Shown: one piece after another, positions 11,907 through 21,602 of the stretch
How the letters are laid out: each line of letters starts with the position of its first letter
Numbering within the stretch: the stretch's first letter is position 1
Origin: Pseudomonadota bacterium
GTDB taxonomy: Bacteria; Pseudomonadota; Alphaproteobacteria; Acetobacterales; Acetobacteraceae
DNA length: 64,000 nucleotides
Direction: 5' to 3'
NCBI GenBank assembly: GCA_021849425.1
Contig: JAJZSY010000001.1
Coordinates: forward strand, 186,001 to 250,000
Notes under the pieces: generated by a model
Database searches by the model: none
What the model saw: only the letters and a program-made list of their open reading frames with translations
Told to the model about the DNA's origin: nothing
Position numbers and translations under genes: made by a program

Positions 11907-11920
11907 TTGATCGGGATCAA
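11907..11920. promoter_or_regulatory. Perfect FNR/DNR-family box upstream of the efflux operon
   Basis: TTGATCGGGATCAA matches the FNR/ANR/DNR consensus TTGAT-N4-ATCAA at all ten positions. It lies 65 bases before the GTG of the HlyD-type gene and after the previous terminator, so it belongs to the efflux operon. A site centred at -41.5 would put the transcript start near 11955, about 30 bases before the GTG. No fnr/dnr gene is in the window. Confidence 0.7.
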
Positions 11921-15899: not shown

Positions 15900-17006
15900 A
15901 TGGCGCGCATCATCGCCCTCATCGTCAAGGAGTTGCAGGCGATCCTGCGCGACCGCAGGGGACGGGTGGTGCTGTTCGCCGCCCCGCTGATCCAGCTGAT
16001 GGTGTTCGGCTATGCCGCGACCTTCGACCTCAACCGCGTGCCGGTCGCGATCTATGACCAGGATGGCAGCGAGGCCTCGCGGCAACTGGTGGCGCGGTTT
16101 CTCGGCGCGCCCGCCTTCGCGCTGGCCGACACGCTGCGCTCCGACCGCCGGATCGACGCGCTGATCGATTCCCGCGCGGTGCAGATGGTGCTGGTGATCG
16201 GCCGGCATTTCACCCGCGATCTGCTGCGCGGGCGTGCGGCGCCGGTGCAGGTGATCGTGGATGGGCGGAATTCCAACACCGCGCTGATCATCGTGGGATA
16301 TGCGAACACGATCCTCACCGGCTTCGGCGATGACTGGCGGGCGGCGCGCGGCGGGCGGGGGCCGCCGGCGCATCTGGTGATGCGGGCGCGCTACAATCCG
16401 GCGCTGCGCTCGCAATGGTTCGTCGTGCCGGGGATCGTGGCGCTGCTCACCCAGGTGGTGACACTCGTGGTGATCGGGCTGTCGGTCGCGCGCGAGCGCG
16501 AGGCGGGGACGTTCGACCAGTTGCTGGTGACACCGCTCACACCGCTCGACATCCTGATCGGCAAGAGCGTGCCGGGGCTGCTGATCGGCATGGTGGAGGC
16601 GAGCGTGATCGTGCTGGCCGCGGTGTTCTGGTTCCATGTGCCGCTGCGCGGGAGCATCGGCGCGCTTTATGCCGGGCTGCTGCTGTTCGTCACCGCCGTC
16701 ACCGGCGTGGGGCTGGCGATTTCGGCGGTGTCGGCAACCCAGCAGCAGGCGCTGCTCGGCGCGTTCCTGTTCATGGTGCCCTCGGTCATTCTCTCGGGCT
16801 TCGCGACGCCGATCGCCAACATGCCGCTCTGGGTCGAGCGGATCACGCTGGTCAATCCGCTGCGCTACATGCTGGTGATCGTGCGCGCCACCTTTCTCGA
16901 AGGCGCCGGATTCGCGACGCTCGCCGGCCAGTTCTGGCCGATGGCGGCGATCGGCGCGGTCAATCTCGGCCTCGCCGCCTGGCTGTTCCGCAAGCGGAGC
17001 ACATGA
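15900..17006 (+). CDS. ABC-2 type permease (YbhR-like)
   Basis: A 368-residue partner of the preceding permease, with the same topology: a first helix near VVLFAAPLIQLMVFGYAATF (residues 22-41), a periplasmic domain, and a C-terminal membrane domain beginning QWFVVPGIVALLTQVVTLVVIGLSVAREREAGTFDQLLVTPL. It starts 6 bases after the YbhS-like stop. It ends the efflux operon: 15 bases after its stop an FNR-like box opens the promoter region of hcp. Read-through into hcp is possible since no terminator hairpin is seen between them. Confidence 0.92.
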   Translation: MARIIALIVKELQAILRDRRGRVVLFAAPLIQLMVFGYAATFDLNRVPVAIYDQDGSEASRQLVARFLGAPAFALADTLRSDRRIDALIDSRAVQMVLVIGRHFTRDLLRGRAAPVQVIVDGRNSNTALIIVGYANTILTGFGDDWRAARGGRGPPAHLVMRARYNPALRSQWFVVPGIVALLTQVVTLVVIGLSVAREREAGTFDQLLVTPLTPLDILIGKSVPGLLIGMVEASVIVLAAVFWFHVPLRGSIGALYAGLLLFVTAVTGVGLAISAVSATQQQALLGAFLFMVPSVILSGFATPIANMPLWVERITLVNPLRYMLVIVRATFLEGAGFATLAGQFWPMAAIGAVNLGLAAWLFRKRST

Positions 17007-17020
17007 TTTTCCGCCCGCAT

Positions 17021-17034
17021 GATCCAGATCAAGG
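17021..17034. promoter_or_regulatory. FNR/DNR-family box in the hcp promoter region
   Basis: ATGATCCAGATCAA matches TTGAT-N4-ATCAA at nine of ten positions. It is centred at 17027.5, 32.5 bases before the centre of the NsrR-like box. If it sits at -41.5, transcription starts near 17069, right under the NsrR box. Confidence 0.6.
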
Positions 17035-17048
17035 CGGCCCGGAATTCT

Positions 17049-17071
17049 AACATGCATTTGAAATACACCTT
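17049..17071. promoter_or_regulatory. NsrR operator candidate before hcp
   Basis: An 11-1-11 imperfect palindrome whose halves are AACATGCATTT and AAATACACCTT, close to the enterobacterial NsrR consensus built from AAGATGCATTT half-sites. It lies 58 bases before the hcp start, and an NsrR gene lies two genes downstream. It would cover the -10 region and start point if the FNR-like box is at -41.5, a typical repressor position. Confidence 0.7.
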
Positions 17072-17129
17072 TTGACGCCGGCCCGACGGCCCCGCGCGGG
17101 AGGACCACCAGCGAAGGGATTTCAGATTC

Positions 17130-18803
17130 ATGTTTTGCTTTCAGTGCGAACAGACGATGCGCTCCGAGACGGGGGCTGCCGGTTGCGGCGGGCCGAAAGG
17201 CGTGTGCGGCAAGGACGAGGCGACGGCCGATCTGCAGGATGTGCTGATCCATCAGCTCAAGGGCATCGGCCAGTACGCCGTGCGGTTGCAGGCGCTGGGG
17301 CGGCGGGATGCCGAGGCGGACAGTTTCGTTCTGTATGCCCTGTTCACCACGCTCACCAACGTGAATTTCAACCGGACCCGCTTCGTCGAGATGATCGCCA
17401 CGGCGGCGCGGCTGCGCGATCGGCTGCGCGACGCCTATGCCGAGGCGGCGCGCGAGGCCGGGCGGACGCCGGAGGCGCTGGGCGGGCCGGCTTCGTTCGT
17501 CCCCGCCGACTCGCTGGTGGGGCTGCTGGCGCAGGCGAATCTCGCCGGCGTGCGCGCCGGGGCGGAGGCGGTGGGCGAGGACGTGATCGGCATGCGCGCG
17601 CTGCTGCTCTATGGGCTCAAGGGGGTTGCCGCCTATGCCCATCATGCCGAGGTGCTGGGCGAGACCCGCGCGGCGATCGCCGACGGGGTGGCGAGGGTGC
17701 TCGACCTGCTGGCCGGCGAGCCGGTCGATCTCGAAGCGATGCTGGAGGAGGCGCTGGCGCTCGGCCGCGTCAATTTCACCGTGATGGAAGCGCTCGATGC
17801 GGCGAATACCGGCGCCTATGGCACGCCGGCGCCGACGCCGGTGCGGATCACGCCGGTCGAGGGCAAGGCGATCCTGGTGTCGGGGCACGATCTGCGCGAC
17901 CTGCACGCGATTCTGGAGGCGACGAGGGATACCGGCATCAACGTCTATACCCATGGCGAGATGCTGCCGGCGCACGGCTATCCGAAGCTGCGCGCCTATC
18001 CGCATCTCGCCGGCAATTACGGCACCGCCTGGCAGAACCAGCAGATCGAGTTCGCCGCCTTCCCCGGCCCGATCGTGATGACCTCGAACTGCCTGATCGA
18101 GCCGCAGCCGCTGTATCGCAACCGCATCTTCACCGCAGGGCCGGTGGGCTGGCCGGGGCTGCGGCATATCGCCGATGGCGATTTCGCGCCGGTGGTGCAG
18201 GCGGCGAAGGCGCTGCCGGGCTTCACCCGCAGCGAGCCGGAGCGGACGGTGACCACCGGCTTCGGGCGCGCGGCCGTGCTGGGGACGGCGGAGCAGGTGA
18301 TCGGGGCGGTGAAATCCGGCGCGATCCGGCATTTTTTCCTGATCGGCGGCTGCGACGGCGCGGCGCCGGGGCGCAATTATTACACCGAGTTCGCCGAGCA
18401 GGCGCCGACGGATACGGTGGTGATGACGCTGGGCTGCGGCAAGTACCGGTTCAACACGCATGAGTTCGGCACGATCGGCGGGCTGCCGCGGCTGCTCGAT
18501 ATCGGCCAGTGCAACGACGCCTATTCGGCGCTGGTGATCGCCCAGGCGCTGGCCGGCGCGTTTGGCTGCGGGGTGAACGAGCTGCCGCTGTCGCTGGTGG
18601 TTTCGTGGTTCGAGCAGAAGGCGGCGGCGGTATTCCTGACGCTGCTCGCCCTCGGGGTGCGGAATGTGCGGCTCGGGCCGACGCTGCCGGGCTTTCTGAC
18701 TCCGGCGCTGCTCGACATTCTGGTGACCCGCTTCGGGGTGCGGCCGATCACCTCGGCTTCGGCCGACCTTGCCGACGCGCTGGCGCCGAAGGCGGCGGCC
18801 TGA
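17130..18803 (+). CDS. hcp: Hydroxylamine reductase / hybrid-cluster protein (prismane)
   Basis: A 557-residue iron-sulfur protein. In E. coli Hcp acts as a high-affinity NO reductase and protein S-nitrosylase and reduces hydroxylamine in vitro. The N-terminal cluster cysteines are Cys3, Cys6, Cys19 and Cys26 (CX2CX12CX6C), the wide spacing of the E. coli-like group rather than the tight spacing of clostridial/Desulfovibrio types. Hybrid-cluster ligands are recognisable in the C-terminal half: GGCDGA, the LGCGKYRFN cysteine, and CNDAYSA. Full length. A reductase gene follows after 64 bases and nsrR after that, giving a self-contained NO-response operon. FNR-like and NsrR-like boxes lie in the 123 bases upstream. 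Confidence 0.96.
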
Positions 18804-18867
18804 GCTTATCCATGCCGGGGCGCGCACCCGCCGCCCCGGCTCCCGCATCCGAACCTGGACCCGAGCG

Positions 18868-19878
18868 ATGAACGATATCACCCTGCTTACCCGCGACGGC
18901 GCGAGTCTCGATGTTGGCTGCCCGCCGGGCGAGACCGTGCTCGCCGCCGCCGAAGCCGCCGGGCTGTTCCTGCCCTCGATGTGCCATGAGGGCAGTTGCG
19001 GCCTGTGCCGGGCCGAAATCACGGCGGGCGAATACGATGCGGGCGGGCGGACGGGCGAGACGATCACGCGCGACGTGCTGCTCTGCCAGTGCCGGCCGAC
19101 CTCGGACATGACGGTGGCGCTGCCTTATGCCGAGGCGGCGATCCTGCGGCACCGCGCGCCGACGCGCGAGGCGGTGATCGAGCGGATCGCGCCGGCGGGG
19201 GCGAGCGCGGTTTCGCTCGGCCTGCGCCTGCGCCCCGACGCGGAACGCGGCGAGGCCGCCGATTTCGTGCCCGGGCAATATATGGAGGTGGCGATTCCGG
19301 GCACCGATATCCGCCGCGCCTATTCGCTGGCCAACCTGCCGAACTGGGACGGGCGGCTGGAGTTCCTGATCCGGCTCGTGCCGGGCGGGGCGTTCTCCAC
19401 CTGGCTCGGCACCGTGGCGAAGCCGGGCGACGCGCTCTCGCTGCGCGGCCCGCTCGGCCGCTTCGTGCTGGACGAGGCAAGCCCGCGGCCGCGCTGCCTC
19501 GTCGGCGGGGGCTGCGGCCTCGCGCCCCTGCTCGCGATGCTGCGGCACCTCGCCGAATTTCAGGACACGCAGGAGACGCATCTGATTTTCGGCGCCAATC
19601 GCGAGGACGAGCTGTTCGCGACCGCGGAGATCGAGGCGCTTGCCGCGCAACTGCCCGGCCTTACGGTGACCACCGCGATCTGGCATCCGCAGGCGGCGTG
19701 GCGCGGGTTTGCCGGCACCGCGGCGGAGGCGCTCGACCGGCTTCTGGCCAGCGCCGCCGGCGCGCCGGACATTTATGTGTGCGGCCCGCCCCGGCTGGTG
19801 GAGGCGGTGATCGCGACGGCGCGGCGGCATGGCGTGCCGGAGGCGCAGATTCTCGCCGAGCATGTGCAATTGCGTTGA
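18868..19878 (+). CDS. Fe-S/FAD/NAD(P)H reductase, probable electron donor to Hcp
   Basis: A 336-residue electron-transfer flavoprotein. An N-terminal plant-type [2Fe-2S] domain has Cys39, Cys44, Cys47 and Cys75 (CX4CX2CX27C). An FAD domain with the RxYS motif (RAYSLANL, residues 150-157) and an NAD domain with GGGCGLAP (213-220) and a terminal CGPP motif follow. This Fe-S-first order is that of aromatic-oxygenase reductases; E. coli Hcr has the reverse order (FAD/NAD first, Fe-S last). The position after hcp argues that it fills the Hcr role. The ATG at 18868 starts right before the Fe-S fold; the upstream open frame overlaps hcp and is not family-like. Confidence 0.88.
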   Translation: MNDITLLTRDGASLDVGCPPGETVLAAAEAAGLFLPSMCHEGSCGLCRAEITAGEYDAGGRTGETITRDVLLCQCRPTSDMTVALPYAEAAILRHRAPTREAVIERIAPAGASAVSLGLRLRPDAERGEAADFVPGQYMEVAIPGTDIRRAYSLANLPNWDGRLEFLIRLVPGGAFSTWLGTVAKPGDALSLRGPLGRFVLDEASPRPRCLVGGGCGLAPLLAMLRHLAEFQDTQETHLIFGANREDELFATAEIEALAAQLPGLTVTTAIWHPQAAWRGFAGTAAEALDRLLASAAGAPDIYVCGPPRLVEAVIATARRHGVPEAQILAEHVQLR

Positions 19879-19909
19879 TCCGGCGCGGCGGCAGCGTTAG
19901 GGATGGTGA

Positions 19910-20353
19910 ATGCATCTCACAATGTTCACCGATTACGGCCTGCGGACGCTGATCCTGCTGGCGCTGCGGCCGGACGGCCAGGCGTCGATCCCGGAAGTGG
20001 CGGCGGCCTACGGCATTTCGGAGAACCATCTGACCAAGGTGGCGCACGCGCTCGGCCAGAGCGGGCTGGTCGAGACCATTCGCGGCCGCAAGGGCGGCAT
20101 GCGCCTCGGCCGGCCGGCGGCGAAGATCGGGCTCGGCGAGGTGGTGCGGGCGATGGAGCCGAGCCTGGCGCTGGTGACCTGCCAGGAGGGCGGCGCCTGC
20201 GCGATCGGCGGATGCTGCGGGTTGCAGGGGGTGATGAACGAGGCGCAGGCGGCGCTGCTGGCGGTGTTCGACCGCTACACGCTGGCGGATGTCGTAACAC
20301 CCGGGGATGCGAGGCTGCTGGCGCGGCTGGGGCTTGGCGAGCCCGCGCGGTGA
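19910..20353 (+). CDS. nsrR: Rrf2-family NO-sensing repressor NsrR
   Basis: A 147-residue winged-helix regulator that binds an NO-sensitive Fe-S cluster and represses NO-detoxification genes. It starts MHLTMFTDYGLRTLI, very close to E. coli NsrR, with the HTH around residues 28-65 (EVAAAYGISENHLTKVAHALGQSGLVETIRGRKGG). Cluster cysteines are Cys91, Cys97 and Cys102/103, matching the three-cysteine pattern of NsrR rather than IscR. It is the third gene after hcp and the reductase, 31 bases from the latter, so probably in the same operon and autoregulated through the hcp promoter. A 26-bp tandem repeat begins inside its last codons. Confidence 0.92.
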   Translation: MHLTMFTDYGLRTLILLALRPDGQASIPEVAAAYGISENHLTKVAHALGQSGLVETIRGRKGGMRLGRPAAKIGLGEVVRAMEPSLALVTCQEGGACAIGGCCGLQGVMNEAQAALLAVFDRYTLADVVTPGDARLLARLGLGEPAR

Positions 20354-20431
20354 CGCGCGGAAAGCCATACACGCGGTGACGCGCGGGAAGCCATACGCGC
20401 GGTGACGCGCGGAAGGTCATACACGCGGTGT
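20346..20431. repeat. Three-copy 26-bp tandem repeat across the nsrR stop codon
   Basis: Three units of exactly 26 bases starting CGCGGTGACGCGCGG and ending near CCATACA, plus a truncated fourth (CGCGGTG). The first unit contains the nsrR stop TGA. Unit length equals that of the argC array, but the sequence is different. Confidence 0.92.
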
Positions 20432-20501
20432 GGCGCATTTCACCCCGCGCGGCGGCGGCGATTGTGAAGCGGGAGCCTCTCCTGTTACGCTAGACGTGAC
20501 G

Positions 20502-20529
20502 CCGGCGCGCCGCGCCGGGCGGGGTTTTT
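20502..20529 (+). terminator. GC-rich hairpin followed by T-run before the ABC importer genes
   Basis: CCGGCGC and GCGCCGG form a 7-bp stem with a 3-base loop; after GCGGGG comes TTTTT. It lies about 150 bases after nsrR and 21 bases before the importer gene start, so it may end the nsrR transcript or act in the importer leader. Confidence 0.4.
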
Positions 20530-20549
20530 GACGGAGCCGGGACAGCAAG

Positions 20550-21602
20550 ATGCCGCAGACAGACCGAGTTTTGACATCACGACGCCAGATGATGGCGGGC
20601 GCCGCAGCCCTGGCCGCGGCGGCCGGGGGCGCGCGGCCGGCGCTGGCGGCGGGGACGACGGCGCTGCGGGTCGCTTATATTCCGATCCTGCCGATGGCGC
20701 AGCTCTTCGTCATCGAGGCGGAGGGCTGGGCGCGGCAGGCGGGGCTGGCGCTGCACGGCACCAGTTTTTCCTCGGGCCCGGCGATGGTGCAGGCGCTGGC
20801 CTCCGGGCGGTTCGACGTCGCCTATATCGGGATCGGCCCGGCGATGGTGGCGCAGGCGCATGGCGTCGATCTGCGGATCGTCGCGGCGAATGGCGAGGGG
20901 CAGATCGCCCTGCTCGGGCGCGGCAAGCTCGCCGGGATGTGGCCGCACGCCGCCTCCCCCGCCGCCGCCTTCGCCGCCTTCCGCAAGGCGACCGGGCGCA
21001 AGGCGCGGATCGGCAGCCTGCCCCGCGGCTCGGTGCCTGATACGGTGCTGCGCTACTGGCTCAACGAGGTCGCGCATGTGCCGCGGGATGCGGTCGAGGT
21101 GATGGGGTTCGGCGCCAGCGCGTTGCAGCAGGCGCTGCTCTCGGGGTCGCTCGACGCCGCATCGACGCTGGAGCCGACCCTGACGATCGTGCAGGAGCGC
21201 GAGCCCGATGCGCGGATTCTGGCGCGCGGCGATGCGATGTTCCCCGGCCAGCCAGGGGCGGTGCTGGCGGTGACGCAGCGCCTCGCGCATGAAAACCCGG
21301 CCGCGGTGCAGGCCATGGTCGATCTGCATGTGCGGGCGACGCGCTTCCTGCGCACGCATCCGCACCGCGCCGCCGCCGATCTGGCCAAGACGCTCGGCAA
21401 GGGGCTGATTCCGGAGGCGACGCTGCTGCGGGCGGTGCAATCGCCCTCGCTCAACCCGATCGCCGATCCGCGCCGGATCATCGCGGCGACGGAAAAGCTC
21501 AACGCCTATCAGGCGAAGATCGACCATATCGGGAAGGTCGCGGATGTGGGGGCGATGTTCGACGCCTCGTTCTACATGCACGCGGTGAAATCGGCCGGAT
21601 GA
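20550..21602 (+). CDS. ABC importer substrate-binding protein (SsuA/TauA/NrtA family)
   Basis: A 350-residue periplasmic binding protein of the aliphatic sulfonate/taurine/nitrate group. The N-terminus looks like a Tat signal: SRRQMM at residues 10-15, then an alanine-rich hydrophobic stretch ending near ALAAG (residue 35). The mature start LRVAYIPILPMAQLFVIEAEGWARQAGL and the ASGRFDVAYIGIGPAMVA motif are typical. It overlaps the permease gene by 4 bases (ATGA) and the ATPase follows, giving a complete importer. The ligand cannot be decided: sulfonate, taurine, nitrate, thiamine precursor and bicarbonate systems share this fold, and no sulfonate monooxygenase or nitrate reductase gene is nearby. 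Confidence 0.88.
   Translation: MPQTDRVLTSRRQMMAGAAALAAAAGGARPALAAGTTALRVAYIPILPMAQLFVIEAEGWARQAGLALHGTSFSSGPAMVQALASGRFDVAYIGIGPAMVAQAHGVDLRIVAANGEGQIALLGRGKLAGMWPHAASPAAAFAAFRKATGRKARIGSLPRGSVPDTVLRYWLNEVAHVPRDAVEVMGFGASALQQALLSGSLDAASTLEPTLTIVQEREPDARILARGDAMFPGQPGAVLAVTQRLAHENPAAVQAMVDLHVRATRFLRTHPHRAAADLAKTLGKGLIPEATLLRAVQSPSLNPIADPRRIIAATEKLNAYQAKIDHIGKVADVGAMFDASFYMHAVKSAG

Follow-up and report, generated by a model that had tools for sequence, protein, structure and literature searches.

FNR-type and NsrR-type sites ahead of an hcp-reductase-nsrR gene row suggest two-input control in an acidophilic member of the Acetobacteraceae

Three consecutive genes on the forward strand of a 64,000-nt stretch of an Acetobacteraceae genome (from here: the window) encode a hybrid cluster protein (Hcp), a flavin/2Fe-2S reductase and an Rrf2-family repressor of the NsrR type. 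This order confirms an earlier note on the same DNA, in which nsrR had been placed two genes downstream of hcp. The region ahead of hcp contains an FNR-type box followed by a candidate NsrR operator. The features are, in order along the window:

17019-17032, no strand assigned: FNR-type box ATGATCCAGATCAA, centre at 17025.5, matching the consensus TTGATN4ATCAA at 9 of 10 positions
17049-17071, no strand assigned: candidate NsrR-type operator AACATGCATTTGAAATACACCTT, an 11-1-11 dyad with its centre at 17060, matching AAGATGYATTTNAAATRCATCTT at 20 of 22 positions
17055-17060, forward strand: putative -10 hexamer CATTTG, a weak match at the position expected with the FNR box at -41.5
17067, forward strand: predicted transcription start, obtained by arithmetic if the FNR box lies at -41.5
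17130-18803, forward strand: hcp, hybrid cluster protein of 557 aa (NF003658, 746 bits, cut-off 367; TIGR01703, 719 bits, cut-off 361)
18868-19878, forward strand: hcr-like reductase, with an N-terminal 2Fe-2S domain followed by FAD and NAD domains (MmoC/BenC order) according to Pfam
19910-20353, forward strand: nsrR, Rrf2-family repressor of 147 aa, with PRK11014 NsrR as the best NCBIfam model

FNR and NsrR-type sites were predicted before enterobacterial hcp in a comparative study from 2005 (PMC1274295), the accessible part of which also predicts NsrR control of hcp for B. cepacia and R. capsulatus E1F1. In the same accessible part, NsrR is recorded for one alphaproteobacterial strain only and for none of the other alphaproteobacterial genomes that were surveyed (PMC1274295). 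Because the combination of FNR and NsrR was thus already predicted for enterobacterial hcp, at least in this part of the study, only the lineage and the compact spacing of the sites are new here (PMC1274295). A literature search for NsrR in Acidiphilium, conducted largely without subscription papers, returned nothing, and searches for the NsrR regulon or hcp in Alphaproteobacteria, for Acetobacter and for hcp promoters with FNR yielded nothing on this promoter.

Methods

The FNR consensus TTGATN4ATCAA and the NsrR consensus AAGATGYATTTNAAATRCATCTT, which is of the E. coli type, were entered by hand, with the motif shape as given in the accessible part of PMC1274295. For searches of whole genomes, the NsrR pattern was built to fit the window box and at most two mismatches were allowed.

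The hcp loci consisted of the best 80 of 582 from the genome collection plus the loci from searches of the genus and the family. Rows were kept when the hcp match began at residue 1, covered at least 400 residues at an identity of at least 60% and was preceded by at least 120 bases, yielding 55 rows. The identity limit removed 40 rows and the requirement for a complete match another 6, L066 and L109 among the latter. The 200 bases upstream of hcp are identical in L018, L038 and L106, and L111 is the same place as L106. Locus L022 was binned as Geothrix, a label that is doubtful since its promoter is nearly identical to that of the family genome G257 (L098). Within the family, G260 is a fragment, and the second hcp of G178 (L110, 51%) fell under the identity limit and was not scored.

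The assembly of the window genome (G000) is 94% complete, so that a gene absent from it could be missing data. The congener G007 was recognized from its contig C1 as Acidiphilium multivorum AIU301.

Results

The hcp product scores above the cut-off of both Hcp equivalog models and is therefore a hybrid cluster protein; its best solved relative is 7de4. The reductase contains the Pfam domains Fer2 (10-78), FAD_binding_6 (130-199) and NAD_binding_1 (211-314), and its best NCBIfam model is MmoC with 357 bits, under the cut-off of 500. It does not belong to the E. coli type of Hcr, in which the FAD and NAD domains precede a C-terminal 2Fe-2S domain, since its own 2Fe-2S domain is N-terminal and the respective score is 104 bits against a cut-off of 383. 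Relatives of this reductase are located at the hcp locus in 50 of the 55 rows with at least 60% Hcp identity.

The NsrR protein reaches 132 bits with PRK11014 and does not attain the cut-off of 182, yet this is its top NCBIfam model, and NsrR 5n07 is its best solved relative (E 5e-19). The ligands of the [4Fe-4S] cluster, which we take from Streptomyces NsrR to be Asp8 and three cysteines, have counterparts in D8, C91, C97 and C102/C103, all aligned with 5n07. D8 is present in all 16 aligned NsrR proteins and the cysteines in those reaching that far (L101 is cut).

Both palindromes that the earlier note had reported ahead of hcp, a 9/10 FNR-family box and an 11-1-11 dyad of the NsrR type, are present at the positions listed above. 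The distance between their centres had been given there as 32.5 bases and has to be corrected to 34.5. A class II activator is centred at -41.5. If the FNR box occupies this position, as we infer for a class II FNR-activated promoter, the start point would be 17067 and the -10 element 17055-17060, inside the NsrR box, which would span about -18 to +5; the arithmetic hence agrees with the former suggestion that the NsrR box covers the -10 region and the start point. The hexamer CATTTG at that place shares only two of six bases with TATAAT. A scan of 16800-20600 for sigma-70 consensus promoters returned none, and the -10 element is therefore placed by geometry only. The empty scan and the poor hexamer are compatible with an activator-dependent promoter, though no proof of one.

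With up to three mismatches, the NsrR pattern occurs once in the 64-kb window and in none of 100 shuffles, with 0 occurrences expected, and the leave-one-out matrix score of the window box (28.4) was reached by none of 1000 resampled sequences. The FNR pattern is more frequent: with up to one mismatch it has three occurrences in the window, where 0.38 would be expected, and 58 in the window's genome, against 3 for a backward control, which makes the FNR box alone weak evidence that requires support from relatives.

The presence of hcp is rare in the genus (2 of 13 genomes, the window genome included) and was detected in 15 of 299 sampled genomes of the family; the closest named hcp among the best 80 of 582 loci is that of Acidocella aquatica (79%). 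In 17 of the 55 rows, corresponding to 14 distinct upstream sequences, a distance of 33.5-35.5 bases separates the top-scoring FNR and NsrR sites, and the box pair is found behind dissimilar upstream sequences. The commonest spacing is 34.5 bases (14 rows), followed by a value represented in 4 rows. Such a spacing of 33.5-35.5 is lacking in 36 of the 55 rows (at least 60% identity), L101 and L102 not counted. These two loci have a site at 34.5 and in addition a higher-scoring dyad on the upstream side of the FNR box, at a centre-to-centre distance of 18.5 bases, and their FNR box is flanked by two NsrR-like dyads.

For a closer comparison 16 loci were chosen, in which the FNR box matches at 9-10 of 10 positions. 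When NsrR scores are averaged at each distance from the FNR box, the maximum lies at 34.5 (14.6 compared with an overall mean of 5.8; z 6.7); second comes +4.5 (z 3.3), a position that overlaps the FNR box. Symmetry of the dyad, a measure free of any consensus, has its maximum at 34.5 as well in the same 16 loci, with 6.1 out of 11 possible pairs compared with 2.9 (z 6.1). A symmetrised leave-one-out matrix located the best site at 33.5-35.5 in 13 of 15 loci and at -18.5 in L101 and L102, and each of the best scores was reached by 0 to 2 of 1000 resampled sequences. All three tests show the strength of the arrangement and not its frequency, because these loci were selected for showing it.

Within the family, 10 of the 15 hcp-bearing genomes carry the box pair at 33.5-35.5 (G000, G007, G112, G257, G067, G104, G288, G175, G221 and G314), four are without it and one could not be judged. 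In nine of these ten, nsrR is the third gene after hcp and the reductase gene, and in G314 the contig ends first. Genome G224 has an NsrR box of 20/22 and nsrR directly after hcp, with no FNR box, and in G316, G290 and G178, which lack the pair, nsrR was not found in the fetched flank of at most 1.5 kb. The earlier note had named the loss of both dyads from close relatives that keep hcp and nsrR as an outcome that would speak against it; the ten pair-bearing genomes show otherwise, and together with the 17 rows that keep the spacing they support its activator/repressor reading. Outside the family search, an Rrf2 gene is located upstream of hcp in the opposite direction in Acidocella aquatica (L017, 48%) and in a metagenome-assembled genome (L019, 52%), and upstream in the same direction in L025 (37%).

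In A. multivorum, the hcp FNR box is identical to that of the window genome at 14 of 14 positions and the spacing is identical too, while the 16 bases between the boxes agree at 9. The NsrR dyad at hcp (L002) is weaker there, matching the E. coli-type consensus at 17 of 22 positions, with 4 of 23 bases changed. The NsrR pattern occurs at four places in this genome, at hcp, once before hmp and twice elsewhere; with a second one recognized by eye, two hmp dyads (L137) are found at positions like those in the window genome, matching at 14/22 and 15/22. The left arm reads AACAGG both at hcp and in the upstream hmp dyad of A. multivorum, compared to AACATG and AACACG in the window genome. The NsrR proteins of the two genomes are 79% identical and the Hcp proteins 94%.

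The hcp leader (17072-17129) is identical at 57 of 58 positions in the window genome and A. multivorum, which exceeds the third codon positions of hcp (460 of 557). An RNA element was considered because of this near identity and was rejected for now: folding gave a z of 0.11 relative to shuffles, no Rfam family reached the gathering score in 16900-17250, and a ten-sequence alignment contained no conservation of the leader beyond the two congeners.

In the window genome, the NsrR pattern was detected at four places, against one for the backward control: at hcp, twice before hmp and once on contig C13. The two boxes before hmp are 35 bases apart (L130:1466-1523, G000:C48:41882-41939) and match at 17/22 and 18/22. 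The gene was identified as encoding flavohemoglobin by PRK13289 (549 bits, cut-off 432). Being a classical NsrR target, hmp provides a second such gene with NsrR-type boxes.

Two proteins of the window genome, L112 and L115, match PF13545 above the cut-off; weaker matches were dropped by eye as Lrp- or GntR-like proteins, and L115 also reads by eye as a GntR-type protein. L112 is FnrL-like: it contains an ETVSR stretch and four candidate cluster cysteines, C24, C27, C35 and C123. Its best model is FnrL (NF045989) with 163 bits, below the cut-off of 300. An FNR box upstream of its gene (L112:824-837) suggests autoregulation. A. multivorum possesses an extra Crp/Fnr protein, L114, that by eye has no N-terminal cysteines. 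Apart from NsrR, there are two further Rrf2 matches in the window genome, one of 40% and one of 43% that is interrupted by one stop, the products of which could bind. Of the denitrification genes, nirK and narG were searched for: nirK gave no match in the window genome or A. multivorum, and narG exceeded its cut-off in A. multivorum and not in the window genome.

Upstream of hcp, a perfect FNR box, TTGATCGGGATCAA, was found at 11907-11920, 64 bases before the GTG start (11985) of a HlyD/ABC efflux gene. Its counterpart in A. multivorum is the aligned TTGATCCCGATCAA (L153:810). The efflux gene row extends to 17006, leaving 12 bases between its end and the FNR box of hcp.

Discussion

Very probably, the promoter of the hcp-reductase-nsrR operon is under two-input control, by activation through an FnrL-type protein and by NsrR repression that nitric oxide (NO) relieves, with feedback through nsrR. 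Evidence that can be read in the DNA itself comprises the boxes and their spacing, the partial conservation of both in hcp-bearing relatives, the gene order, the presence of FNR- and NsrR-type proteins and the boxes at hmp. At low oxygen, the FnrL-type activator would bind to 17019-17032 and recruit RNA polymerase; a class II arrangement, in which its box is near -41.5, is the most likely. NsrR carrying a [4Fe-4S] cluster is predicted to bind to 17049-17071, over the -10 element and the putative start point, and to block initiation. The predicted polarity of both effects is that of an activator gated by a repressor. NO would damage the cluster and NsrR would leave the DNA, so that Hcp and the reductase could be made and remove the NO. 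With nsrR as the third gene of a presumably shared transcript, repression would then be restored in a negative feedback.

A different activator appears unlikely. A DNR- or NnrR-type, NO-responsive protein could occupy the upstream box instead of an oxygen sensor, in which case both inputs would be NO. Its motif would fit, as the DNR motif resembles the FNR box according to the accessible part of PMC1274295, and the lack of N-terminal cysteines, judged by eye, in L114 of A. multivorum favours such a protein. However, L112 and L115 are the only proteins of the window genome that pass the PF13545 cut-off, the former with FNR-type cysteines and FnrL as its best model, albeit below cut-off, the latter of the GntR type by eye, and the lack of a nirK match in either genome and of narG above the cut-off in the window genome also argue against it, with the reservation that a 94% complete assembly may miss a gene.

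We consider it improbable that the boxes are of little weight and that hcp is mainly transcribed from the upstream efflux operon with the FNR box at 11907-11920. Since that operon has its own FNR box and ends 12 bases before the one of hcp, read-through could feed hcp too; the perfect box is aligned in A. multivorum, and the scarcity of hcp in the genus points in the same direction. The hcp FNR box itself is nevertheless identical in both genomes next to a spacer that has kept 9 of 16 bases, and the pair recurs behind unlike upstream sequences, including L019 with its oppositely directed Rrf2 gene, both of which speak against such a supply. A RirA- or IscR-like Rrf2 protein on the downstream dyad, as an iron or cluster-assembly switch, is very improbable: the two additional Rrf2 matches would provide candidates and the NsrR protein of the window also scores 110 bits with the RirA model, but the linked protein has NsrR as its top model and as its best solved relative, the box is present at two genes for NO detoxification, hcp and hmp, and nsrR belongs to the row in nine of the ten pair-bearing family genomes.

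The proposed FnrL/NsrR control resembles in part that of E. coli hcp-hcr, which FNR activates and NsrR represses. As the earlier note had assumed, the same two kinds of site are present, with an FNR-like site (8/10) upstream and an NsrR-like dyad (18/22) downstream, before hcp and a reductase gene; the spacing does not carry over, because the best E. coli sites are 77.5 bases apart compared to 34.5 here, with a second, weaker dyad (16/22) at 27.5 from the E. coli FNR site. E. coli FNR acts on hcp from about -72.5. Moreover, the 2Fe-2S domain is at the C end in E. coli Hcr and at the N end in the reductase of the window, and E. coli hcp is followed by hcr and poxB, with nsrR not next, unlike here. 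Among Burkholderiales, the hcp loci L039, L040, L046, L048, L051 and L058 likewise combine FNR-like (7-9/10) and NsrR-like (14-19/22) sites with a related reductase, whereas their spacing is 49.5-50.5 (6 of 8 labelled rows, not L043 and L044). This wider spacing occurs in 6 of the 55 rows, all of them Burkholderiales, and a search of their fetched flanks at E 1e-6 gave no nsrR for any of the six loci. Rhodobacter capsulatus E1F1 offers an alphaproteobacterial hcp predicted to be under NsrR, with nsrR nearby, but according to the accessible part of the study, which names no FNR box for it, this hcp sits in a nitrate assimilation cluster, unlike here (PMC1274295).

If two-input control applies, the FNR-plus-NsrR logic of NO defence would extend to acidophilic Acetobacteraceae of the Acidiphilium type, and hcp and hmp would constitute a candidate NsrR regulon with precisely placed operators in an environmental genus. 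Nitrite in acid water can become NO on its own, and NO defence would therefore be sensible in a genome with no nirK match and no narG above the cut-off. A further idea, at present rather doubtful, is that of a compact, length-locked FNR/NsrR module in acidophilic Acetobacteraceae, with its sites 34.5 bases apart and the repressor on the -10 element, in a layout unlike those of E. coli and Burkholderiales, the NsrR half of which may be drifting along with the repressor within one genus. If this is true, the genus could be used for watching the co-evolution of a repressor and its operator.

A variant dyad, GGTATT...AATACC, was noticed by eye in the hcp promoters L104, L108 and L029 and perhaps reflects another Rrf2 specificity; L104 and L108 belong to two of the three genomes G316, G290 and G178.
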